Source of the DNA: Asterionellopsis glacialis
Taxonomy: Eukaryota > Bacillariophyta > Plagiogrammaphyceae > Rhaphoneidales > Asterionellopsidaceae
DNA: 29,187 nt
Direction of reading: 5' to 3'
NCBI GenBank assembly: GCA_014885115.2
Contig: WKLE02000270.1
Coordinates: 4,564 to 33,750, forward strand
Shown here: positions 5,432-28,806 of the stretch, one piece after another
Layout of the letters: the number at the start of each line of letters is the position of its first letter
Position numbering within the stretch: the first letter of the stretch is position 1
Notes under the pieces: generated by a model
Told to the model about the DNA's origin: nothing
What the model saw: the letters and a program-made list of their open reading frames with translations, nothing else
Database searches by the model: none
Program-made: the position numbers and the translations under genes

Positions 5432-6907
5432 ATGTCTACCTCATCGTATCGTTATAGATCACGATATTCTCAAGACGAAGCGTCCTCTTATTCCTCTCAA
5501 AATAATAGTGCTGAGGATGATAACATTGTCAATGAAATACTAGGATTCAAATTATTGTCGAACAACAATTGGTGTTGGAATGGGACATGCATCCTATTGA
5601 AATGGACGTGTTCGACGAAACGTCGATTGATGATATCAACAGGTGCTTTCATTATTTTGAGTGTACTCTTGCGTCATGCTGGATCCATATTTCAATTTGC
5701 GGATTTACATTCCACACACATGTCATCCATTCAAAGTTATGGGTACGTCACGGAACCTAAATGGAAATGGCAAGGACGACAACAATTTTTGGAATCTGTC
5801 CGATCGTTACAAGCACCATCGAAATCATCGTCATTGTCAAAATCATCGACCTCCTCCAAATCATGGATGTCATTTTCCATATTTCGAAAGAATAACAATA
5901 ACAACGGACAAGGTACAACCATGAATGATTGGTTACCACAAACACCATTAGATATACCACGTTGGTATGAAACCCATTGGAAAGTTGATTTTACGTGTCC
6001 CACCAAGGAACGTATTGTAGGCTCTGTCATTGAAAACGATGCATCGGAAGTTGGTAAATGGTATGTCTGTAATCCGAATCATATTCAAGCAATTAGTGAA
6101 CATAAACGAAATGCATTGAAAAAGAAGAAACATCAAAAGGGATGTTTAATTTATACATCTGTACGTCCGAATGGATTAGTATTTGAAAAGGCGTTATTAG
6201 ATCGATTGCAACAACATTCTAGGAAACACCATGGTCAACAAGACACGTTACCTTGTGATATTCATGTCTTTGATCCAACTGCACCTCAAGAAATTGTATA
6301 CAATCATACAAACACATCCTTTATTCATATTCACCCATGGGGATTTGGTGGTGATTCTAGTCATTCGAATGATCAGAGCGACAATAAGAGAAATAATATG
6401 AGAGGATTATTTGGAATTGGTGGCGGTAACAAAAAAGACGAAACACAACAGCAGCAGCAGCAACAACAACAGGATCCTGCTAAATTAACAATTACATCAG
6501 AATCAGGTGAACCAGTACCATCCAATAATATTCAATTGAAAACATTTACAGAAACAGTCGATCTATTGGGACACAATACGAACGGACAAACTACCATTGA
6601 CTTGTTAGTTTTGGATTGTGCTGGATGTGAATGGCAAACCTACCAAGATTGGATCAATCCTAAAAATGTCGATATATCGGAGATTTTACTACATGTTCAT
6701 GGTGCACCACCTGACATGGTGAATGATATGTTTACTCAATTACAAAAACAACATTATGTCACCTATCACAAACAGGCCAGTATCTACAATGGTTTGGTGG
6801 GACAATCGCAATTTTATTCCTTTTTGAAATTGAAAAAAGATTTCTTCATGACATCATCATCTGTGGATGCCGTACAAAAAGGTTTACGACAACTATTTAA
6901 GCAATAA
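5432..6907 (+). CDS. METTL24-like (Methyltransf_22/FkbM-type) membrane-anchored methyltransferase-like protein
   Basis: This is an intronless 491-residue protein. A polar N-terminus precedes one hydrophobic segment at about residues 66-82, which suggests a type II Golgi/ER membrane protein with a luminal domain. The luminal part shows the block order of the METTL24-like family: C-P-T at about 190, GKWYVCNP at 208-215, the CLIYTSVRPNGLVFEKAL block (the family's CxVYSFGxxxxxSFE), CDIHVFDPT at 275-283, and DLLVLDCAGCEW at 390-401. The last corresponds to the FkbM-like D-x-x-G-x-E-W strand. Low-complexity inserts interrupt the fold, including a Ser/Lys-rich stretch at about 130-155 and a poly-Gln run at about 338-348 encoded by mixed CAG/CAA codons. 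The substrate is unknown; glycan or other small-molecule O-methylation is an inference from the FkbM family. The start ATG has upstream ACC (CACCATG). It is convergent with GPI8. Confidence 0.8.
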   Translation: MSTSSYRYRSRYSQDEASSYSSQNNSAEDDNIVNEILGFKLLSNNNWCWNGTCILLKWTCSTKRRLMISTGAFIILSVLLRHAGSIFQFADLHSTHMSSIQSYGYVTEPKWKWQGRQQFLESVRSLQAPSKSSSLSKSSTSSKSWMSFSIFRKNNNNNGQGTTMNDWLPQTPLDIPRWYETHWKVDFTCPTKERIVGSVIENDASEVGKWYVCNPNHIQAISEHKRNALKKKKHQKGCLIYTSVRPNGLVFEKALLDRLQQHSRKHHGQQDTLPCDIHVFDPTAPQEIVYNHTNTSFIHIHPWGFGGDSSHSNDQSDNKRNNMRGLFGIGGGNKKDETQQQQQQQQQDPAKLTITSESGEPVPSNNIQLKTFTETVDLLGHNTNGQTTIDLLVLDCAGCEWQTYQDWINPKNVDISEILLHVHGAPPDMVNDMFTQLQKQHYVTYHKQASIYNGLVGQSQFYSFLKLKKDFFMTSSSVDAVQKGLRQLFKQ

Positions 6908-7362: not shown

Positions 7363-8664
7363 TTAGAATAATTTGGATGAAATTAGGACTGCACTTATAA
7401 ACGCTACCATACATGTGAGAAATCGAACATCTGTAGGTTCCATACCTCTATGATTACTATAATCGTCACCAGAATTATCTTTACTACTTTGTGGATTGGT
7501 AGTTTTGTTAGATATTAGCGACTCCTGGTCATTGTCATTGTTTGTTTCCATCGTGTTTTTTTGGTCTTCACCGACGATACTACCGCTACCAATATTATCA
7601 CCATAATAGTACCCTTCCATTTTGGTCAAGAGTTCTGTATCTTTGTCGTACTTGTATTTGCCTACGGTTGGTTTCTTCAAAGCAATATTACCGATAAAGT
7701 CAGATAGTGGTACAGTCGACATGGGTCTTGTACAATTCACTTCACGTTTCCCAATGGTAGATCGTGACCCTGCAAAATGTGGATTGACCAATATACTTTC
7801 GGCATTTGACTGTTCCAAAGAGGGGTTGATACCAATCGCCTGCATGGACATGAAGGTGTAGTGTTCAATAACACTAATTCCCAAATAATGGTCTGAATGG
7901 TGAGCATAGGAGTTTTGATCCCGCAAGGAGGATCCAATGGCATAAATGTTGGGTGATACAATATCATCCATCAAGGTAAAGGCTTGACATGTATCGGCTA
8001 TAAATAATATTTCGTTATACTTTTTTTGCTCATGCATGGTTTGAAACATGGTGGATATTTCGTGCGATGTAATTTCTTCGACATCTTGAAATTTAAAAAA
8101 TTGATCACCTCCATGTCCTGTCCAATAAATGAATATATTGGAATGTTCATCGGTCTGTAAGACAGGACTGTTGTTATGCGTATCGCTAATGCCGTGCATG
8201 ACTTTGAGTAAATTGGATACCGTGACATCGTCACCACGATAGTCAATTTGAGTGTTTTGGGAAAATAAGGATTCCCGTGTTCCGTAATTTAAATACATTC
8301 CATTTTTGGCTGGATTTCGTGGATTTGTGACATATTCATCGGCAATCATTAAAATAATGTTGGAGTCTGGTATGCCACGTTTCCGACATTCTTCATAGAC
8401 CATGAGTGCATTATTGGCATGGCGGTAGTTAAACCAATAGCGTGATGAGGATACAATGACAGCATGATTGGATGTATGTGTTCCAGGTTGTAGTAACTGT
8501 TGTCGTCGTGAGGATGATGCTCTTGATACAGCTGCAGATACTTGTAGTATTAGAGTATTGGGATGTAGAACACAAACTAGGACAAGAATTATCAATATTG
8601 ACATTCTTGGTATCTTATTAGGTCGTCGAAGGAGCATCATCGTGGGGACTGGTTGTGGTACCAT
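7363..8664 (-). CDS. GPI8: GPI-anchor transamidase catalytic subunit (GPI8/PIG-K), family C13 cysteine protease
   Basis: This 433-residue protein should cleave C-terminal GPI signal peptides and transfer the protein to the preformed GPI anchor, in the ER lumen, within the GPI8/GAA1/PIG-T/PIG-S/PIG-U complex. An N-terminal hydrophobic segment at about 21-44 serves as signal peptide. The catalytic domain begins with NHAVIVSSSRYWFNYRHANNAL, typical of PIG-K. The active-site His is H184 in YWTGHGG and the nucleophile is C226 in ADTCQAF. The spacing of 42 residues between them matches the family. IYAIGSSLRDQNSYAHHSD, also a PIG-K hallmark, follows. A hydrophobic C-terminus at about 413-433 is the expected membrane anchor. 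A Ser/Asn/Asp-rich linker at about 340-405 precedes it. It is intronless, convergent with the methyltransferase gene, and divergent from the SET fusion gene. Confidence 0.96.
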   Translation of the reverse strand: MVPQPVPTMMLLRRPNKIPRMSILIILVLVCVLHPNTLILQVSAAVSRASSSRRQQLLQPGTHTSNHAVIVSSSRYWFNYRHANNALMVYEECRKRGIPDSNIILMIADEYVTNPRNPAKNGMYLNYGTRESLFSQNTQIDYRGDDVTVSNLLKVMHGISDTHNNSPVLQTDEHSNIFIYWTGHGGDQFFKFQDVEEITSHEISTMFQTMHEQKKYNEILFIADTCQAFTLMDDIVSPNIYAIGSSLRDQNSYAHHSDHYLGISVIEHYTFMSMQAIGINPSLEQSNAESILVNPHFAGSRSTIGKREVNCTRPMSTVPLSDFIGNIALKKPTVGKYKYDKDTELLTKMEGYYYGDNIGSGSIVGEDQKNTMETNNDNDQESLISNKTTNPQSSKDNSGDDYSNHRGMEPTDVRFLTCMVAFISAVLISSKLF

Positions 8665-9495: not shown

Positions 9496-12400
9496 ATGAA
9501 TAATGAAGATCGACATCATCCAATGGACCCTCGTGCAGCACCTAGAGATCCTCGTCGTAATTTAAATGCCTTTGGACAACACCAGCAGCAACAACCGTCT
9601 CCTCCTCCACCGCATCAGCAGCAGCATCAGCCATATCAGCATAAAAATCAACCAGATCACTATCAACGACAACAACCACCACCTCGTCCTTCTGTAGGTC
9701 CACCACCTCCAACCTTTCCCTCGCATCATGTACCTCCACCAGATTTAAGTGTACCACCGCCTGATTTAAATTTACCATTACCACCTCCACCACAACCGAT
9801 TCAACACCAACCGCAAAGACAACCACCGATGGATCCACGGTTACGTGCCATGAATGGAAATGGAAATGCTAATGTCCTCCCATCCCCACCTCGAGTTCCA
9901 CCCCCTTCCGCAGTCCCACCTCCATCACAGTATCAGGTACAATCACCGCCTCTATCACTTGTACCACCACCATCATCATTACATCAACAACAACAACAAC
10001 AGATTCCACCAAAACCGGTTGTACCAGCAGTTCCTGAAACTACATCGGCAGTATCACTTCTTCAGGAACAAAATATCACACCATCTTCTGACACAGCAGT
10101 ATCATCAACGCAACAACAGGCACCACAATCTATCAATAATAATCATTATAATAATAACAACAATACTAAAAAAGATGCATCTGCATCTGCTATTGAAAAG
10201 GCAATGGGTGCATTTGAACAGATAGATGAAGTCGAATGGGCACACAACGATGGCAAACAGAATAATAATTTATCGGGTGAATTATCGACACGTCCCAAAT
10301 ATGTCCGTTCGGATCCATGTGGATGCATGCCAGTATTGACCTATGATGAAGAGGGGTACAGTACAGGTACACCGTGTTGTACGGACATGTCCTGTGTTTT
10401 ATTTGCCTGTATGGAAGAATGTAATTCCGACTGTACCGCCGGTGAATACTGCCAAAACAAACGTATTGCCAAGAAGGAATGGAAATCACTAGAGGTCTTT
10501 GATGCAGGGTTAAAGGGACGTGGGTTGCGTGTCTTGGAAGATGTCAAGGCAGGTGACTTCATTACAGAATATGTAGGACGAGCCATTAAAAAACGATATT
10601 TGGACACCTTGTTTCGACGCTATAAAAATGAACAAATGTTGTACATTATGGCCTTGGACTCTAATACGTATTTGGATGCACGTAAAAAGGGGAGCGTGGC
10701 ACGGTTCATTAATCATTCCTGTGATCCGAATTGTGTCGTGGAGCGATGGAAGGTCAAGGGTATATTGCGGGCCTGTATTATGGCACGACGTGATATCAAG
10801 GCCGGTGATGAATTAAGTTTTGATTACAAATGGGATCGGAAACGTGGACGCGCCCCTACCAAATGCCATTGTGAAAGTCCTACATGTCGGGGTACGCTGG
10901 AGGTAGCCCGGTCCATGGAAGAAGAAGAATTAGAAAAACGATTGGTGGGACATTGGAAAAAACCATTCAATCCCAAGGCGGGACGTGAAATTGTCAATCG
11001 GTCCATTAAAATTTTATCCATCCAACATCATGAATACTTCCCCGCAGACGTGTGTCGGTATGATGATTTGACAGGACAACACTTGGTGATATATCGACAT
11101 GATATGGAAGAAAGTTGGGAAGATTTAAGCAAGGAAGATTGGATGCTGTTAGATGAAGAAGCGGAACAATTTGTTATTGCCAAAAAAAGTAATAAACCAG
11201 CAGCTTCGGCACTGTCCTCTTCCTTGGCATCCTCTTCAACCTCATCTTTGATGCCATCGGCACTCGTGGGGAATGCCGCGACGCAGGGGAACAGCACCAC
11301 ACATTCTTACTTGCAACAAGCACGAGAACTTAAAAATTATTTTTACGTCGTGACACCCATCAAGGAAGGTTTAACACAACAACAATTTTTAGATAAAGTC
11401 CGTAGAAGGTTTGAAGTGACTATCAATCTAGAGCAATATACAGAAGAATCAAAGGACGATACTCCCGAAGCAATCGAGCTAAATGATACTCTACAAAAAG
11501 CAAAGGATGGCCGTGCATGGAAATATACCATTGTAGGGTACAACTTCCCCAAGGCCTTCGAACTCTTACAAAAGGCTGTGGGCTATCATCAAACCAAATT
11601 AGAACCAACCACTGAAAAGACAACAGATGATAATACACCCGCAAACAATGGCGAAGAAGTCATTATTCCACGATGTATTGTCGATGAAGTTAAACGACGT
11701 TTACCACATCTCATTCGTTCTGGCAATGTGGCTGTGACGTTTGTACCATCGGAAAGCAAAAGTAAACAGTTTGCTAAATTGAGATTAGAATCAGAGTTGG
11801 TTTCAGACTTGATGATTGCCAAGGAAACACTGTGGAAGGTATTGAAAAGTTTGTGTACAGAAGCAAATGCACCCTTGGCATCTCAAACTTCTCCTGGTGG
11901 TAGTGGTGGTGCTGCAATACCTAAGGATTTATGTTTATATGGTGGACAATTATCACATGAAGAATTCAACTTGCTCTACAATAATAAATGTTTGTCATCT
12001 TCTTCTCTGGCAGGAGATGCAGTCATTCCTGACCGGTTAAGCCAAAACTGTAACGAGAACTTAAACGATTCCCCATTCTTTTCTGCCTTTGAAAGTACAC
12101 AGCGTTGTACTGTTTGGGTTCAGGCACAAGCTGATAATGGTCGTATCAATCACAACAATATGTTAATTAGTGATGCACCTAATGCACCACGCAAGGTCTT
12201 TTTTGGTTGTGATGATCCCAAGGATATTCCTAAACTTTGGGGATTTATTACGACAAGAGCACAAGAACTTATGAATGGTGTCAAGTACCTACATTTGGGA
12301 GCTGACAAGGTTTACCAACAAATCATGATGCAAAGTCCGGTTAATTTCTTTGATCATGTAAAAGAGATTACAGGCGCATCTGTAACTGTTGATTCCATGA

Positions 12401-15400
12401 CTGGTAACCATTTACGTATTGCCGTTTCAGCTGATAGCAATGGTAATGACAACAACGGTGCAGCTTTAGCAGAGGAATTACTCCGATTGCAGATTGAACT
12501 TTATCGCGATATGTCAATTCGTCAACAGCCTTGGATCTTTGGACGAGATTGGTCATTAACATGTGGTTTGAGCAGCTATAGCAGTGGTAATGCTGCTACT
12601 TCCGTATCAACGACTGAGTCGTCGTCGGCAGACACATCACCACGACCATCATTATCATCCTCACTTCTTTCTTCTTCGGCTGGAACTAGTAGAAATACCT
12701 CCACCAATTTGTTTGATGCTCGGTCTGTTGCAAATGCATGTATGGATATTGCTGAAATTACATCCAGTATAGAATCTGATTCAAGCGTAGCAGCTCATGC
12801 AACCATTATTATGTATAGATTCCTTGACACAGTATCTCCCAGAACACAATTGAAATTACGAGAAGTGCTCTTAGCATGTGTCTTCCTTGCTAGTAAGGCA
12901 CAGAAAGTCGTACGATGGAAACGTCTTGAAGCTGTATTGGAGGCAGCCTATAAGACATTTTATCCTGGATCACGATTTGATAAAGATGGCGAAGAAGCTA
13001 GAATATGGGAAAAGAAAGTTCTGACCGCTGAAACTGAGATATTGCTTACGTTAGATTATGATGTATTTTGGAAAGGTTCTGAATGGATCGTTTCTGCAGC
13101 TACCAATGCAGGCCGTGTATCAGAATCTGACGTTAAAAGAGCACTTGAATTTGCCTTTGCTGGACCTGTCCTTGGAGCGGGAAAAACACTCTGGCTTAAA
13201 TACGGGCCGGAATACGTATTTGCGGCTGCTGCTGGATTTTTATCGGTGAATATTGACTTTTTGTTTTCAGCACTCTCCTTGATTCCACTCAAAGTTTCAC
13301 AAGCAGCCGAACTAATTGCAAATTCTATCAAGACAAACTCTTCTTTTAGTAAGAGACAACACTCATATTCGATGCCATCACATTATCAGGAGTTCTTCAA
13401 TGGAGGAGAGAATACCTTGTCGAATAAAGCCGTGCATATCAAGGATATTTGTATGGAAAAAATGCGAGAATTCCTCATCAAGTCGTCAACTTCAGATCGT
13501 GAATCTTCTCCAAATTATTTGAATTCTGAAATTGCGCAAAGGTTCAAGATCACAGCTGCCCGTGATAGAAATCGACGAGTATTTCGTAACGTCCCAGGTG
13601 ATGTTTTAGAAGATGCTGTGATGCCAATTATAGATGGAGTAAGTGCTGAAAGTAAGTGTAGCATTTTTACTGCCAAAAGCTCAACAGCTGGTGCTGTTGA
13701 TCTTACTGAGTCTGGGGATATAACACTTGATGGCAACTGGAGAGCTATTGCCATTGCTGAGAACCTCCTTCAAGATGCAACCGGTGGAAGATTACCCAAT
13801 CCAGTTGGAATTCTGAATAAAGATGATGCAACTTCAAGGATTCCTTCGAAGGGAAAGCCCGGGCGTCTCCAAATGGGTGTCATATCAACCACTGAAGGAT
13901 GGGATGATACAATTCAATCTTCGCTCTCAACGACACCTGCATCCGGCAGTGGAAAGACCGGTGGAAAGTCATGTGTTGCTGGGAGAATACCTGAGTCACA
14001 AATTCAACGTATTGGGCTTCGTTGGTGGATTCCTCCTCGGTACGGACAAAGTCCAAGTGGTTCTATTTGTGACATACCTGGAACCAGTCAAGCCGTTTCT
14101 GAAGAGAATGGGACCTTGATTGTACTGGCAAATCTTGCTAAGGGTTTTCTTGGAGAAAAAGCAGCTACTGCGTCTTTCCCGATTTTGACTTCAACGGCAA
14201 CAGGTCAATTGGGTACGGTGGCAGGTAGAATCAAAGATCGGAATGTTGCAGTTTCCTTGCAACGTTGGCCATCTCAGAAGGTTGCAGCACGTGAACAAAC
14301 GAAGGCAGGCAGCAGAAAGGGTGACAAGTCTGGTATGGATATTGGTTTTTCACCTGCGGCACTTCAAGAACTGCAACTTTTAATGCAGATGCATTCTTTG
14401 ATTCCCTCTCCTCAGGGGCACCCGAATTTTATGCTCCCTGTGGCCGTGGCACTGCCATCTGAAACTAATAACATTGAAGTTGATTCTGATGATGCTGGAG
14501 ATAAGATAGGCGAGACAGGTAATTCGGATGATGATATGTTTTCCCTTTTTCGTACAAGCGAAGAAAATGAGAGAGCAGCTGAGAAGGAAAAGAGGAGAAA
14601 AGACATGTTATCTGGTCCACATCTGGTATTTGAGCCAACACCATTTGTCATGCACAGATTTACAACCCGTTCCAAAAGAATCAAACGAAGCGGTGATGAA
14701 CATGCCATGAGTCCCGCTATTATTGATGCTTGGTTTCATGATTTGCTGTCGGCTTTGGTGCACTGTCACGCGTCTAATGTAGTCCTACGGACGTTGCAAC
14801 CAGACCAGATCATCATTGATCATTGTGGCGTCGCAAAGCTCAGTGGACTGTACAGAGCCACAGTGCTTCCACCTGGAGAAAGGGGATACATTGATCCGCT
14901 GAAAAATGCTAGCTCCAAAAAGGGAGAAGAAGATGTATCTAGCAATCCATATGCTGCGCCTGAGGTGTTACTTGGCTCAACCAAACACACTAAGGAAACC
15001 GATATCTGGGCTCTCGGGTGTCTGATGGCCCATCTTCTTCTCCAAAAACCACTGTTTGTAGGTAAGGATCGAACAACACTTCTATTGTCTATGTTTAAGA
15101 TAGTCGGTACACCGTCAGAGAAAAATTACCCTGATGCTCTAAAGTTCCCCAAGTATCGCGAGCACCGTAAAAAGTACAAGCGAGGTGTTGAGAAGGCGTT
15201 CCAGTATTTGATGAAAGATGATGCACAGAATCATTCTGGTGCGCTTAGCCTATTGGCTCGTATGCTTCATCTTGACCCCAAAAAGCGCATAACAGCTGCT
15301 GAGGCGTTGAGCCATGAATACATGGCAGGGTATATTGAGAAATCTAATGATGAATCATTCCGTAAGCAGTATGTAAGGGAATGGACACAACTGAAATCAA

Positions 15401-15579
15401 AGTTAACAAGGTCTGATAAAATGGAAGAAGATGAAGCTAAAGAACAGAAAAAGAGCCTGAAGCGAAAAGCTAACTTTCTGGCGGCCGCATCAACAATGGA
15501 AAACGATGAGGATGACTTGTACGACATGGACGACTTGTTGGGAGGAAATTCGGGGAAGAAAATGAAAGAAATCGTGTAA
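9496..15579 (+). CDS. SET2-like H3K36-type methyltransferase fused to Tudor-like, KH-like, cyclin and CDK-like pseudokinase domains
   Basis: One uninterrupted frame encodes 2,027 residues. Residues 1-235 are Pro/Gln-rich. AWS cysteines span about 275-322. SET spans about 330-448, with intact NHSC at 406-409 and a cofactor-side FDYKW at 442-446. The post-SET CxCxxxxC is at 457-464. A Tudor-like segment lies at about 500-555 (FPADVCRYDDLTGQHLVIY). KH-like segments lie at about 616-695, 721-787 and 936-1003. A two-box cyclin fold spans about 1076-1280, with K1134 and E1179 in the positions that contact a CDK. A CDK-like fold spans about 1536-1945: VAVS at 1584-1587 replaces VAxK, LRT at 1764-1766 replaces HRD, and DFG is reduced to S-G-L, while AAPE (1820-1823) and DIWALG (1836-1841) are kept. 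The C-terminus is acidic then basic, probably nuclear. Methylation of H3K36 is inferred from AWS/SET similarity. The kinase half is predicted inactive. No SRI domain is visible. Confidence 0.93.
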   Translation: MNNEDRHHPMDPRAAPRDPRRNLNAFGQHQQQQPSPPPPHQQQHQPYQHKNQPDHYQRQQPPPRPSVGPPPPTFPSHHVPPPDLSVPPPDLNLPLPPPPQPIQHQPQRQPPMDPRLRAMNGNGNANVLPSPPRVPPPSAVPPPSQYQVQSPPLSLVPPPSSLHQQQQQQIPPKPVVPAVPETTSAVSLLQEQNITPSSDTAVSSTQQQAPQSINNNHYNNNNNTKKDASASAIEKAMGAFEQIDEVEWAHNDGKQNNNLSGELSTRPKYVRSDPCGCMPVLTYDEEGYSTGTPCCTDMSCVLFACMEECNSDCTAGEYCQNKRIAKKEWKSLEVFDAGLKGRGLRVLEDVKAGDFITEYVGRAIKKRYLDTLFRRYKNEQMLYIMALDSNTYLDARKKGSVARFINHSCDPNCVVERWKVKGILRACIMARRDIKAGDELSFDYKWDRKRGRAPTKCHCESPTCRGTLEVARSMEEEELEKRLVGHWKKPFNPKAGREIVNRSIKILSIQHHEYFPADVCRYDDLTGQHLVIYRHDMEESWEDLSKEDWMLLDEEAEQFVIAKKSNKPAASALSSSLASSSTSSLMPSALVGNAATQGNSTTHSYLQQARELKNYFYVVTPIKEGLTQQQFLDKVRRRFEVTINLEQYTEESKDDTPEAIELNDTLQKAKDGRAWKYTIVGYNFPKAFELLQKAVGYHQTKLEPTTEKTTDDNTPANNGEEVIIPRCIVDEVKRRLPHLIRSGNVAVTFVPSESKSKQFAKLRLESELVSDLMIAKETLWKVLKSLCTEANAPLASQTSPGGSGGAAIPKDLCLYGGQLSHEEFNLLYNNKCLSSSSLAGDAVIPDRLSQNCNENLNDSPFFSAFESTQRCTVWVQAQADNGRINHNNMLISDAPNAPRKVFFGCDDPKDIPKLWGFITTRAQELMNGVKYLHLGADKVYQQIMMQSPVNFFDHVKEITGASVTVDSMTGNHLRIAVSADSNGNDNNGAALAEELLRLQIELYRDMSIRQQPWIFGRDWSLTCGLSSYSSGNAATSVSTTESSSADTSPRPSLSSSLLSSSAGTSRNTSTNLFDARSVANACMDIAEITSSIESDSSVAAHATIIMYRFLDTVSPRTQLKLREVLLACVFLASKAQKVVRWKRLEAVLEAAYKTFYPGSRFDKDGEEARIWEKKVLTAETEILLTLDYDVFWKGSEWIVSAATNAGRVSESDVKRALEFAFAGPVLGAGKTLWLKYGPEYVFAAAAGFLSVNIDFLFSALSLIPLKVSQAAELIANSIKTNSSFSKRQHSYSMPSHYQEFFNGGENTLSNKAVHIKDICMEKMREFLIKSSTSDRESSPNYLNSEIAQRFKITAARDRNRRVFRNVPGDVLEDAVMPIIDGVSAESKCSIFTAKSSTAGAVDLTESGDITLDGNWRAIAIAENLLQDATGGRLPNPVGILNKDDATSRIPSKGKPGRLQMGVISTTEGWDDTIQSSLSTTPASGSGKTGGKSCVAGRIPESQIQRIGLRWWIPPRYGQSPSGSICDIPGTSQAVSEENGTLIVLANLAKGFLGEKAATASFPILTSTATGQLGTVAGRIKDRNVAVSLQRWPSQKVAAREQTKAGSRKGDKSGMDIGFSPAALQELQLLMQMHSLIPSPQGHPNFMLPVAVALPSETNNIEVDSDDAGDKIGETGNSDDDMFSLFRTSEENERAAEKEKRRKDMLSGPHLVFEPTPFVMHRFTTRSKRIKRSGDEHAMSPAIIDAWFHDLLSALVHCHASNVVLRTLQPDQIIIDHCGVAKLSGLYRATVLPPGERGYIDPLKNASSKKGEEDVSSNPYAAPEVLLGSTKHTKETDIWALGCLMAHLLLQKPLFVGKDRTTLLLSMFKIVGTPSEKNYPDALKFPKYREHRKKYKRGVEKAFQYLMKDDAQNHSGALSLLARMLHLDPKKRITAAEALSHEYMAGYIEKSNDESFRKQYVREWTQLKSKLTRSDKMEEDEAKEQKKSLKRKANFLAAASTMENDEDDLYDMDDLLGGNSGKKMKEIV

Positions 15580-22039: not shown

Positions 22040-24952
22040 ATGTCGAGTACGTTTGACAAAGAGACGTCTTATTATGAGAGAAAGAAAGCTCGACAAGAGG
22101 CTATGAAACAGTTGGATGATGTTAAAACTCCTGATGGAGAAGATGCTGTTTCGCTTGTATCTGCAGGAACTGGTGGAGGTTCGACAGGTGGTAGTGGTGA
22201 TAGCGCGGGCAGGAGGGCCTCCACAGAAAAATCAACTGGAAACAAAACAGCCATCAGTAAGGCTAGACAATTCTTGTGGGACGAAGATGAGGTTGTTCAG
22301 GAGGATCTCAACGCATCGACATCATCTTTTGAAGACAAGTTAAGGTCATTCGCCAACAATGTGATAGCTTCAGACGAAATACCTCCGAACAGCGGGAGGG
22401 TACGTGCCATGATGAGCCGGATTCCTAGTCTTCGTCCTACCAAGGCGGGGGTTGATGATGAATGGTCTCATCAACGTACCAACTTAGCTCCACAAAGTCA
22501 AACAGATATTTCTGACGCGGATGTGCGGCAAGGTGAAGAAATGCTGTCTGATGTTCGTTTGACTTCTCGTGGAAAACGCAGTACTACTTTCATTGGCTAT
22601 GAAGCTGATGGACATACTAACCCTTTCCTCAATATGTGGCACAACATATTGGACTGGTTTTACTACATGGAAGAATACATCGTCGCTGCAACTGCAGGAT
22701 GCTGTTCTGTACGTAATCGTAGAAAATGGCTTGCGTTCCTTTCTTCCGCTCTGGCTTTTGGCCTCTTGATTTATGGTATTACTCAACTTGCGAAGAATGA
22801 TGGAAGTAGCGATGGAAGTACATCAGCAGTCGCAGCAAGAGCACCACCACCTACTGCTCCCAAAGCCACCTCTAACCCGACAATATCTCCTACAAAAGCT
22901 CCTACGAAAACCGAAGCAGAGCCTACAGCTTCACCCCCAACTGCTGCTGAGGACGAAGAAGATGAGGACGAAGATGATGAAGTAGAAATAGCAGAAACTG
23001 AAGGAGGTGAACCCGTCGCAACCACTATCGAATTTGACTTTGAAATCATCAACGAAGCTCGCTTTGAAGCTATCCACGGTACAATTGCAGAATCTGGTTT
23101 TACTGATGTTAAAATCCTCCAGAACCCTAGTACGCCGCAGTTCAAGGCACTGCGATGGTTATCAGACTTTGATACTGGTCAGATTGATGTTCGCTCGGGT
23201 GCATTGTTACAACGGTATGCCTTAGCAGTTCTTTTTTTTACGACCTATAAGGATGCCGAATCGCACAATATCGATAAATTCGTGGAAGATGCCGATGATT
23301 TGGACGATGATGATGAAGACATCATGTGGGATTACCATGATAACTGGATGTCCGAAAGGGGTATATGTATGTGGTGGGGTGTGTACTGTCCCGCTCGTGT
23401 CCATGAAGGAGTGTTAACAGATTACTACGATGAAAATGCAGATATTATCAAACTGAACCTTACACTAAATAATGTTCGTGGTACTATCCCTCGTGAAATT
23501 ATGGCTCTGGAGAATTTAGAAACGCTTGATCTGAGTATGAACCACCTCTCAGGCACCATTCCTCCTGAAATTGGAGAATTGGTTGAACTTGGTGAGTACC
23601 AAACAAATATTGATTGGTCCATTTAAGGTTTGTGTCCCGAATTATGATGACAAAGGTCTCATATATTTTCAAAACTCTGCTCTTTTTGTTTTGTCATAGA
23701 GTACCTGTACCTTAACTGGAATAAGTTAATAGGTACACTCCCCGAAGAAATTGGTAACTTGGAGTATGTTCGTGATATGCACTTTGGTGGTAATTTTATT
23801 CGGGGAACAATTCCAGACTCAATTCTGGAACTTCGAGAGCTTCGTGCACTTGGATTAAATGAAAACTACTTCAATGGCGCCCTGCCCAACCTTAGCCACT
23901 TGGTCCATCTAATGATTCTTTATCTGGACGATAACCAATTCACTGGAGAAATTCCACCCAGCTATGGTGAAGTTACTACACTAATGGATTTGCGACTCAG
24001 CAAGAATTTCATCCGTGGAAAAATCCCAACTGAAATAGGTCGTTTGAGTCGTCTCGAGCTCCTTTTCCTTGACGATAACACCCTCTCTGGAACTTTGCCC
24101 AACATTTTTGACAACTTGGTCCGTTTGAGGCAGCTTGAGCTCTTCAAAAATCAATTTACTGGCCCTCTGCCACCAAGTATCAGTAATCTGGTTGACCTTC
24201 GAATTCTCTATTTGGACACTAACAAATTTACCGGTGCTGTTCCCGAAGATTGGGCTAATCTCCGGGATCTTAGTAAGTGACAATGGCTTCTTAAGTCACT
24301 TTATTTTGCATTTCATTTCACTGTGCTCACTTTGCTTATTGCATATCAACTTCACAGATGAGTTTTATCTTTACGACACCAATGTAACGGGCCCTTTCCC
24401 TGAGGCTCTTTTGAGTATGAAGGCCTTGCGTGAGTCCACACAATGCATAAAACCCGAACTTTGCAGGTATTGTTATATATTTTTAAAAATGGTTGTCTAA
24501 TGTTGCTCTGCTGTATTCTCTTTTAACTGTTAGGTGATCTTCGCATCCAAAACAACGAAATGACTGGAAGTTTGCCAGAGGAACTCTCCGAATTGTATGA
24601 ATTAGGTACGTGTCTTCACTGATACTATGGATTGGCTTATTATTTTGTATGGTGAGTTGTGGCACTCTCAAAGCTTACTCTCGTATACTCTTTACATCTA
24701 CCCATCTCGCTATGGATTTATTCAGAACATATATATATTGAAGGAAATTATTTCAATGGCACGATTCCTAACTCATTAGGTGAATTAATTCATCTATTGG
24801 AATTCCAGTTCCACGACAATGACTTTACGGGGAAGGTTTCTGAAGATGTTTGCGACTTGAAGGAAGACTTCCGTGCGATGTGGTTCACTGCGGATTGTGA
24901 TTCTGTGTTTGGCAGTATTGAGTGCAAATGCTGTGATGAATGCTATTCTTAG
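22040..24952 (+). CDS. Membrane-anchored leucine-rich-repeat protein (diatom LRR receptor-like), five exons
   Basis: Exons are 22040-23591, 23700-24272, 24358-24429, 24534-24605 and 24726-24952, and the product is 831 residues. All introns are GT..AG and phase 1. ATG 22040 is chosen; the codon before it is GTG. The N-terminal 229 residues are polar and probably cytosolic. One membrane segment begins at W230 (WLAFLSSALAFGLLIYGI) and ends near 252. A Pro/Thr/Ser stalk (SNPTISPTKAPTKTEAEPT) and an acidic run follow. A cysteine-containing LRR cap (ICMWWGVYC) follows QRYALAVLFF at about 390. Fourteen plant-type 24-residue LRRs with LxxLxLxxNxFxGxIP run from about residue 470 to 800. The C-terminus is Cys-rich (ECKCCDECYS). 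No kinase or other catalytic domain is present, so the role is probably ligand or surface binding. The N-in topology is inferred. Confidence 0.9.
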
Positions 24953-25917: not shown

Positions 25918-27183
25918 ATGTATAGTTATGGTTCATCTGCACGTGGTGCTACAGGAAAACGTGGCCATGGTGGTCGGAATTATCGTCCGCCTCCAGAGCG
26001 ACGTGATCCAACAACGACACCACCACCTCTTAGAGAATGCTCGTGTCTTTTGGAATTAAATTTGATAGAATATAGTCGTAAATGTGGTCAGGTGCAGCAA
26101 GACGGTAGTCATGACAACAGTAACGGTACTGCTACCAACACCACTTCCAGGCAACAGCAACATCAGCAAGGACGGCAACATCTATGCTTTGGTGGACGAC
26201 ATGGTATGGAATATTGTCAAAAGGAATTACGTCGTCATAGAGTACATTTAATCATACCAGGAAAGAACCAAGCTGGTCCTTTATCAATTGTAGCAAAGAC
26301 ACATCATGATGCTATACCTGCAGCAGAATGGCTACTTCGGCAATTAAATCTTTCGTTGAATACTATTACAAATGACAACAGTAGCAGAAACAACAACAGT
26401 GATATTGGTACCACTTCTGGTAATGTAGCAAATACGCCGGAAGTAGCCACCACCAGGCAGAATCAAGAGGTGACGGAAGAAAGTAATAATAATGATGATG
26501 ATGAATCTGTAACTGGTCGAATTATACTGAATGTAAAGCATCACAGTGTGGAGGAAAATACAATTCATGGAATATTTATTCGTCGACCAACAACAACGGC
26601 AGGGTTTGCTAATACTGTAACACCCTTAGTACCCTGTTGGTTTTTCCGGAGTATAACCAGAACTTCTAGTGTACAAGATTGGTGTATACTTTCATGTGCC
26701 TTAATACAATATAAATACAAACATCATACACGTAGCAGCCTACCGCAGGACAATGGGAGGAGGGGAAGAAGACATGGGATATGCTTTGAATATCAACGTA
26801 CTGGCCAATGCCGTCGAGGCAATCAATGTCGATTCCTTCATGAGGCCACAATTAATGAAGGTGATACCAATGACAATGAAGACGATTTCAATTTAAATCT
26901 TTCCTCTACTACTAACGAGACTGGTATACCAGAAAATAATGCAACACAAGCAACAACTGCTGTCGCTGAAAGTGGTACTGATTTAGAAAAAATAGAAGAG
27001 TCTCTCGCAGTACTGCATACATGTATTGATAATTTACAATTTCGATTAGGAAGAAGTACTGTCGGTAAACTGGACATTTTCATGGACTCACAAGGTCAAA
27101 CAGCATTTGCTTCTGGTACATTTGAGTGTTTAAATATTCTTTCTCAAGAAATCAAAAGTACTGTACATAACTCTTCTGAGTAA
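25918..27183 (+). CDS. Probable RNA-binding protein with KH-like segment and CCCH zinc finger
   Basis: This is an intronless 421-residue protein. I use ATG 25918 because the codon two positions upstream that opens the frame is TTG. The N-terminus is Gly/Arg/Pro-rich (GATGKRGHGGRNYRPPPERR), RGG-like. A KH-like segment at about residues 90-145 contains FGGRHGMEYCQKEL followed by a beta strand and LSIVAKTHHDAIPAAEWLLRQL, matching the G-x-x-G then V-x-G-x-x-x-x-V-x-x-A pattern only loosely. Asn/Thr/Ser-rich linkers follow. A single CCCH finger C289-x8-C298-x5-C304-x3-H308 (CFEYQRTGQCRRGNQC) has the classic RNA-binding spacing. A C-terminal helical stretch of about 60 residues has no match I recognise. 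The role is inferred as mRNA binding in nucleus or cytoplasm. No partner gene is evident nearby. Confidence 0.75.
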   Translation: MYSYGSSARGATGKRGHGGRNYRPPPERRDPTTTPPPLRECSCLLELNLIEYSRKCGQVQQDGSHDNSNGTATNTTSRQQQHQQGRQHLCFGGRHGMEYCQKELRRHRVHLIIPGKNQAGPLSIVAKTHHDAIPAAEWLLRQLNLSLNTITNDNSSRNNNSDIGTTSGNVANTPEVATTRQNQEVTEESNNNDDDESVTGRIILNVKHHSVEENTIHGIFIRRPTTTAGFANTVTPLVPCWFFRSITRTSSVQDWCILSCALIQYKYKHHTRSSLPQDNGRRGRRHGICFEYQRTGQCRRGNQCRFLHEATINEGDTNDNEDDFNLNLSSTTNETGIPENNATQATTAVAESGTDLEKIEESLAVLHTCIDNLQFRLGRSTVGKLDIFMDSQGQTAFASGTFECLNILSQEIKSTVHNSSE

Positions 27184-27603: not shown

Positions 27604-28806
27604 TCAATTCCGCTTGTTCCTTCTTACCATTCTCCCCACGAAACGTATTGGAAGAGTGATAAACAGCATATTTGCATTCAAATTCCACATAGCGTGTGCT
27701 CCAATTGCTGCTAAAAGTCCCTTTTCTTCAAAGGTGGGGGAGAAAATAGTAAGGGATACATATGCTGCAACGAAGCACTGTATGAGTGCGGAGGTAACAA
27801 GCTGTATAACGGCAAGCTCATTGCTTGGGTTAATATTGAATCCCTGCAGGAAAGGTCCAACGTAATTTGAAGCGTGACTAACAGCAAACAATATTGAAGA
27901 TATCAGCACCCAAGGAGTATGGCCTAAGATTTCTGAATTTTTCTTATTTTCTGTTTGATTTGCGATACTTTTGTTGTCTTTCACAACATTGTCGACATCA
28001 CCTTTTTTGTCCTGTACATTAATTGTCCAAAGTCTTTTTATCCCAGAAAGAAAGAAGCTCCGATATATTGTTTCCTCTAAAATTGGAGCTAGAAGAATCG
28101 CACCAAAGTACAAAAGTAGTGGACTTTCTGATGCCCAGTCTAAAATTGTGCGTGATCCGAAATCCACGTTTGTAACCAGCCGAACCACAGATCCGATTAG
28201 TGTTTGCACTGCAGTCATGTATGTTTTTGAACACGCCACCAAAATCATTTTGATCGGTGACTCTGGCAGCTGTAAAAAGAGGTAAATGAAAGGAACTGGT
28301 ACTAATAATGCCAGTAATACCAATAAAGCAATAGGAAAGAAAAAGAGCCCGCTTACAATATTTGAAGTCATATGGGATAATGCAATCAGGATATTGACCA
28401 GCTGAGTGAGCACTTGTCGCCCAAAGTACGGTGATATTATGTATGAGAAAGCTGTGAACATCATAATGACACCGACTCGACCGAGGGCGAAGCGAAAAGC
28501 TCCTTTCAGGAGTTTTGGGAAAGCTGAATGAACTCTTAAACCCTCAGTCTGTAAGGAAGTAATAGATTGCTTTGAAAAGATTCTCTTAATCCCGTTTTTC
28601 ATACCAAATCCTTCACAATTCGAGTCTTTAGAGGCATATTTTTGCAGTTCATCTACAAAAGTTAAAAGTTGTGGAGAGTTGATGTTTCGCGTATGAATGC
28701 GCTTTTTTGTGACTATTCGACTGCACGGGACAACAAAAGCATTCGAGACCGCCAATAGAGTAACTGCATATGTCCAATGGCAAACCTGTCTTGAAAACCT
28801 CGCCAT
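27604..28806 (-). CDS. CPBP (CAAX protease and bacteriocin-processing) family intramembrane protease, probably plastid-targeted
   Basis: This intronless 400-residue protein carries all three CPBP motifs: EETIYR at 244-249 (E244, E245, R249), FxxxH at 307-311 (FAVSH) and HxxxN at 371-375 (HAMWN). These are the glutamate, histidine and asparagine residues of the glutamate-type intramembrane peptidase family that includes Rce1. Several hydrophobic segments lie between about residues 90 and 390. The N-terminus has a hydrophobic signal peptide and then S21-N-A-F24-V-V-P. This fits the ASAFAP-type cleavage site of diatom bipartite plastid presequences, followed by a basic, Ser/Thr-containing transit-like stretch (CSRIVTKKRIHTRN). 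Plastid CPBP proteins in plants occur in chloroplast membranes, so a thylakoid or envelope location is inferred. It is convergent with the CCCH gene. Confidence 0.88.
   Translation of the reverse strand: MARFSRQVCHWTYAVTLLAVSNAFVVPCSRIVTKKRIHTRNINSPQLLTFVDELQKYASKDSNCEGFGMKNGIKRIFSKQSITSLQTEGLRVHSAFPKLLKGAFRFALGRVGVIMMFTAFSYIISPYFGRQVLTQLVNILIALSHMTSNIVSGLFFFPIALLVLLALLVPVPFIYLFLQLPESPIKMILVACSKTYMTAVQTLIGSVVRLVTNVDFGSRTILDWASESPLLLYFGAILLAPILEETIYRSFFLSGIKRLWTINVQDKKGDVDNVVKDNKSIANQTENKKNSEILGHTPWVLISSILFAVSHASNYVGPFLQGFNINPSNELAVIQLVTSALIQCFVAAYVSLTIFSPTFEEKGLLAAIGAHAMWNLNANMLFITLPIRFVGRMVRRNKRN

Follow-up and report, generated by a model that had tools for sequence, protein, structure and literature searches.

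Passages of PMC10421102 recount that Set2 binds polymerase via its SRI domain, and that in a diatom most trimethylation of histone H3 at lysine 36 (H3K36me3) lies in promoters and genic regions. The same source describes diatom SETD2 homologues (Phaeodactylum Phatr3_EG02211 and its MMETSP relatives) that share an AWS-SET-PS arrangement, to which polar centric diatoms and some of the raphid pennates add motifs IV-VII; its main text contains neither 'cyclin' nor 'kinase', and motifs IV-VII are not named as such there. The main text of PMC13076208 mentions neither SET2 nor SETD2. A second precedent is found in Phytophthora infestans, where PITG_14137 is described in passages of PMC3019232 as an inactive kinase resembling cyclin-dependent kinases (CDKs) with an N-terminal histone-lysine methyltransferase. 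Its authors, writing in 2010, identified orthologues in P. ramorum and P. sojae and none in other species. They also reported four fusions, from Phytophthora and ciliates, in which a CDK precedes a cyclin and the Asp of the HRD motif is changed to Asn, a type that these passages say was not found in two diatoms. Here, we describe a gene from the diatom Asterionellopsis glacialis (NCBI GenBank assembly GCA_014885115.2, contig WKLE02000270.1, positions 4,564 to 33,750; this stretch of 29,187 nucleotides is the window) that joins a SET methyltransferase, a cyclin and a predicted CDK-type pseudokinase in a single open frame.

A similar architecture is that of PITG_14137. Going by its description in the cited passages, a SET methyltransferase likewise lies N-terminal to an inactivated CDK-like kinase, in the same order, whereas those passages do not speak of a cyclin, Tudor or KH part in the Phytophthora protein. 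The Phytophthora and ciliate fusions also hold a CDK fold and a cyclin in one chain with a kinase that is probably dead, but in these the kinase comes first and the cyclin second, SET is missing and other residues are lost. One further protein, P0223, is a CDK-then-cyclin fusion with the sequence MHRNLKPKN (HRN in place of HRD) and looks like the type reported in those passages. With Set2/SETD2, the diatom protein has in common an AWS-SET-postSET core with intact NHSC and FDY motifs; it differs from them by its predicted Tudor and KH-like modules, its cyclin and its pseudokinase, and in that SRI was not found in 25 members. From the CDK12/CDK9-cyclin K/T pairs (the Ctk1 complex) it is set apart by the loss of catalytic residues, by being one chain and by having the cyclin first. 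Judged from their description, with AWS-SET-postSET and shared motifs IV-VII, the diatom SETD2 homologues of PMC10421102 would belong to the same family. An initial annotation, made from the DNA alone, had considered the architecture undescribed. This view needs correction, as the passages on a SET plus inactive CDK-like fusion (PMC3019232) and on motifs IV-VII of diatom SETD2 homologues (PMC10421102) indicate: the fusion is partly anticipated by the 2010 Phytophthora report.

The fusion protein, P0001, to which all residue numbers refer, is real, conserved and unusual. Its locus holds a stop-free run of 2046 codons, compared with a maximum of 203 in 100 shuffles of the window. In a Pfam scan of P0001, SET and Cyclin_N passed their cut-offs, as did Pkinase over its later part, and AWS stayed below its own (E 0.024). 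Together with PDB matches and structural models, these results bear out the annotation's reading of one frame in which AWS-SET-postSET is followed by a cyclin fold and then by a CDK fold. A protein search returned at least 246 proteins at E ≤ 0.001, with 120 homologues among the matches listed that are 39 to 54% identical to P0001. All but one of these (119/120) are annotated with both SET and kinase domains, the remaining one, P0104, with the kinase only. The homologues identified by name belong to Seminavis, Nitzschia, Cylindrotheca, Bacillariaceae, Cyclotella and the taxid of Thalassionema nitzschioides, all of which we take to be diatoms, and three (P0064, P0071 and P0106) are MMETSP transcripts marked complete. 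A diatom-like fusion, P0101, is labelled Alexandrium tamarense, a dinoflagellate; mislabelling, contamination and transfer are all possible. For domain statistics, 25 members picked for diversity from the alignment of 121 proteins (P0001 and the 120 listed homologues) were scanned with Pfam at E ≤ 0.1, and SET and Pkinase were detected in all 25.

As read from its sequence, the kinase is a conserved pseudokinase: the ATP-binding lysine, the HRD Asp and the DFG Asp are all gone in 121/121 aligned proteins. At the β-3 site, residue 1587 is Ser throughout, while residue 1589 is Gln in 98 proteins, His in 19 and another residue in 4; Gln1589 may be the true counterpart of the β-3 lysine, based on alignment with the CDK12-type kinase of the same genome. 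The position of the HRD Asp is taken by Thr (51), Ser (35), Asn (23) or other residues (12), and the DFG stretch is two residues shorter than that of CDKs in the profile alignment. Glu1625 of the α-C helix, Pro1822-Glu1823 of the APE motif and Asp1836 are each invariant (121/121), from which we infer that the fold and the cyclin-facing helix are constrained while catalysis is lost. Ser1587, Trp1591 and Pro1592 are also kept in every protein, with pairwise identities as low as 34%. Profile alignment and structure comparison both identify a CDK fold, CDK12 sharing the top rank in the latter, so this part of the annotation is confirmed, although the active kinase it implied is not. A profile of the N-lobe gave one chance match only in the PDB. 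Beyond the alignment, 18 further relatives were inspected, and the HRD Asp is missing in all nine that have a readable catalytic loop. Some residues speak against a pseudokinase: among the ten further relatives that have the 1589 site, it is Lys in P0205, Arg in P0133 and Gln in the other eight; P0140, which lies outside the 121, has by eye a Lys near the β-3 site; and residue 1595 is Lys in 119/121. P0205, despite its Lys, is without HRD Asp and DFG, and so is P0133 despite its Arg.

The genome (40.3 Mb in 1503 contigs, the window being on contig C118) also encodes canonical counterparts of both partners. The helix pattern GF-P-x-T-x-x-R-E has one match in it, where an intact CDK12-type kinase (L058/L054, G000 C50:10716-11936) with a proline-rich tail carries GFPITAIRE, HRDLKASN and ADWG. 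Its best PDB matches are CDK12 (E 2.9e-76), CDK13 and CDK9, and in an alignment with eight fusion kinases it keeps the Lys, the HRD Asp and the Asp of D-W-G. The genome has 19 cyclin matches, the fusion itself included; among the others, L020 most resembles cyclin K (E 1.2e-25), followed by cyclins L and T. We rejected the idea that the fusion replaces the cell's own CDK12-cyclin K pair, both genes being separate in the same genome.

The cyclin fold of the annotation is supported as well. In addition to the Cyclin_N match above cut-off in P0001, Cyclin_N was found in 19 of the 25 diverse members, and in the PDB the cyclin profile matched cyclin T2 (E 0.0046) and nothing else up to an E of 0.1. 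This profile was built from 12/12 pieces, that of the kinase from 7/12. AlphaFold2, run on alignments that each comprised 69 of the 120 matches and the window piece, yielded a confident and compact model of cyclin, linker and kinase with a predicted template modelling score (pTM) of 0.89; the structure comparisons listed kinase and SET matches only.

In the N-terminal half, we found an AWS-SET-postSET core, as in Set2/SETD2, with the catalytic NHSC motif and Tyr present. N406, H407, C409 and Y444 are kept in all 120 members that have the column (1/121 is gapped there). Cys 275, 277, 295, 300, 309 and 319 of the AWS-like region are invariant in the 25 diverse members, six of which have AWS by Pfam. 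The nearest PDB sequences to the SET part are Set2/SETD2, ASH1L and NSD; where the SET regions align, it shares about 35% identity with SETD2, and its structure scores are 23.9 for NSD3, 22.8 for ASH1L, 22.4 for Set2 (9wms) and 21.8 for SETD2. A SET tree of 39 hand-picked rows joined the eight rows labelled diatom fusion, among them P0137, which is truncated before the kinase, into one clade (100/100). Four other fusions and the Trebouxia protein P0149 fell into the next clade (95/89), and the fusions were separate from the Set2 clade (95/93), to which the SRI-bearing rows belong. The label SET2-like agrees with a core of SET2/ASH1/NSD type, for which SETD2 is one candidate subfamily. These features point to an H3K36-family lysine methyltransferase that would act on H3K36 itself. 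No SRI domain was detected in any of the 25 diverse members (Pfam, E ≤ 0.1), consistent with the annotation, which had noted none, and the same scan recovered SRI in three of three proteins chosen for their existing SRI annotation. An SRI profile search of the whole genome gave no match, but its positive control gave none either. Among 49 SET matches in the genome is a second AWS-SET-like protein, L004 (G000 C121:46354-46680), which lies in a 355-amino-acid open frame and forms a long branch in the tree.

Between the post-SET and the cyclin, sequence profiles place a Tudor domain that was absent from the initial domain list. The profile combined 8 of 12 pieces with P0139 and P0140; the Pfam family PTM_DIR17_Tudor was detected in 3 of these 10 pieces (best E 0.00057) and not in the window's own piece, and a Tudor family in 2 of the 25 diverse members. 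The α/β modules that follow in the model are probably KH-like. In the last of the roughly four, KH-I_KHDC4-BBP matched 2 of 8 pieces at E 0.15, which is weak sequence support, and a KH-like module profile (8 of 12 pieces) retrieved no KH from the PDB, only chance matches to designed proteins. The N-terminal 240 residues are presumably disordered, and the acidic peptide near the C-terminus is a possible docking motif.

More distant relatives show similar combinations. P0139 and P0140, found in a search with the SET-to-cyclin region (5/6 pieces plus the window), have SET, AWS, Cyclin_N and Pkinase in the same order as the window fusion. Their Cyclin_N (E 0.099 and 0.00028, respectively) and Pkinase matches (E 0.0052 and 0.0016) are weak, and the Tudor stretch of both is visible by alignment. 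P0146, from the same search, has AWS, SET and Pkinase with no cyclin match at E ≤ 0.1, while P0204, 75% identical to it, has a weak Cyclin_N match (E 0.0049). All four are without HRD and DFG. A third protein search added P0204 and P0205 as the only new fusions among the matches listed, and no protein named as oomycete was among the matches listed in two wider protein searches. P0146 and P0204, both distant SET-pseudokinase fusions, end in an RS-rich tail; such tails are frequent in splicing and CDK11/12-type proteins.

Table 1. Features of the fusion gene and neighbouring genes in the window (positions in the window; residues of P0001).
Feature	Residues	Position	Strand	Basis or remark
Fusion gene, single open frame, 2027 amino acids		9496..15579	+	Open reading frame and homologue comparison
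N-terminal Pro/Gln-rich, poorly conserved stretch	1-240	9496..10215	+	Mean conservation 0.03-0.16 per 20-residue block
AWS-like cysteine region	270-330	10303..10485	+	Pfam E 0.024, under cut-off; invariant cysteines
SET domain, NHSC and FDY motifs intact	341-445	10516..10830	+	Pfam, structure comparison, alignment
Post-SET cysteines, CxC...CRG	455-470	10858..10905	+	Invariant C457, C459, C464; Set2 alignment through residue 468
Tudor domain (predicted)	496-556	10981..11163	+	10-piece profile against 7de9_A, E 6e-12
About four α/β modules, KH-like element order	615-1010	11338..12525	+	AlphaFold2 model
Cyclin fold	about 1075-1331	12718..13488	+	Cyclin_N E 5e-6; model all-helical
Further probable KH-like α/β module between cyclin and kinase	1345-1430	13528..13785	+	Model element order only
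CDK-type pseudokinase (predicted)	1458-1947	13867..15336	+	Pfam, PDB profile, model, structure comparison
β-3 site S1587-L1588-Q1589 replacing ATP-binding lysine	1587-1589	14254..14262	+	No Lys at 1587 or 1589, 121/121
Catalytic-loop site LRTLQPDQ replacing HRDLKPEN		14785..14808	+	No Asp at HRD position, 121/121
AKLSGLYRA replacing DFG segment		14833..14859	+	No Asp at 1780-1786, 121/121
Acidic C-terminal peptide DDLYDMDDLL, conserved		15502..15540	+	D2006, L2008, Y2009 in at least 90% of 25 members
Methyltransf_22 domain protein		5432-6907	+
Peptidase C13 (legumain/GPI-transamidase family) gene		7363-8664	-	Just upstream of the fusion
Two adjacent leucine-rich repeat frames		22040-24280	+	Possibly a single intron-containing gene, or a broken copy
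CCCH zinc-finger protein		25918-27183	+
Rce1-like CAAX endopeptidase		27604-28806	-

Based on these sequence comparisons, we lean modestly towards the view that the cyclin-pseudokinase half serves as a non-catalytic protein-protein dock for an H3K36-family methyltransferase, in place of SRI; what was once an enzyme with its regulator has probably become an integral module for docking or control. In CDK-cyclin pairs, the two partners meet at the α-C helix, and the cyclin of the fusion would pack in the same way on that helix of the pseudokinase. This inert pair, substituting for SRI, would then dock the methyltransferase on the elongating polymerase machinery, where the SET domain would methylate H3K36, the Tudor domain would read chromatin and the KH-like modules would perhaps touch nascent RNA. 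It is conceivable, though we hold it only tentatively, that the half is a dummy copy of P-TEFb or CDK12-cyclin that keeps the former seat of the kinase for the polymerase C-terminal domain (CTD) on the elongation complex, probably since an early stramenopile ancestor. Several observations weigh against a dock of this kind. The SET structure scores slightly favour NSD/ASH1 over SETD2, and the SET tree leaves the subfamily open, with deep forks unsettled and NSD and ASH1 rows not gathered. The cyclin is divergent, as its single PDB match and the 6/25 members missed by Cyclin_N indicate. Some relatives are listed without the kinase, such as P0124 (Skeletonema marinoi, 1341 amino acids, on an 852-kb contig), which ends near the cyclin, and this could be a gene-model artefact or a real loss; P0122 and P0131 are marked partial.

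Instead of docking the enzyme, the cyclin-pseudokinase half might mainly act in cis and turn the SET domain of its own chain on or off, with ATP, a peptide or a partner kinase as conceivable ligands. We regard this as unlikely but worth serious attention: the co-occurrence of SET and kinase in one chain in almost all listed homologues and the compact C-terminal model agree with it, and pseudokinases regulate partners elsewhere, as HER3 does HER2 in passages of PMC3019232, but the SET-plus-middle model has a low pTM (0.46) and the two halves were modelled separately. Were the half no more than the functionless remnant of an ancient, decayed CDK-cyclin fusion, the loss of all three catalytic residues would be accounted for; we give such a relic very little credence, given that S1587, W1591, P1592, E1625, P1822, E1823 and D1836 are unchanged in 121/121 despite identities down to 34%. 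Hardly any weight remains for the annotation's proposal that the fusion hard-wires an active CTD kinase and its cyclin to Set2. The CDK fold, for which CDK12 ties for the best structure match, and cyclin T2 as sole cyclin match would suit it, and a relocated lysine is conceivable from P0205, P0140, P0133 (Arg) and K1595, but none of the 121 has the aligned β-3 Lys, none the HRD Asp and none an Asp within the DFG stretch, P0205 itself has neither HRD Asp nor DFG, and an intact CDK12-type kinase is encoded separately. No phosphorylation of the polymerase tail is expected of the fusion because its catalytic residues are missing in 121/121. That the frame is an assembly chimera, or a pair of genes taken for one, is practically out of the question: the few relatives listed without a kinase would be in its favour and nothing in the window itself is, and we rejected it because SET and kinase co-occur in 119/120 listed homologues, some of them from transcripts, including the three complete MMETSP ones.

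The family bears on how H3K36 methylation is coupled to transcription outside animals and fungi. If the docking role proposed here is true, the diatom lineage would link H3K36 methylation to transcription through a pseudokinase dock and not through the SRI-phospho-CTD handshake of yeast and animals. The conserved cyclin and pseudo-CDK in the methyltransferase chain would thereby offer a concrete alternative form of coupling where SRI was not found (25/25 members). It would also be one of few examples of a cyclin and its partner kinase jointly becoming a non-catalytic part of a chromatin enzyme.

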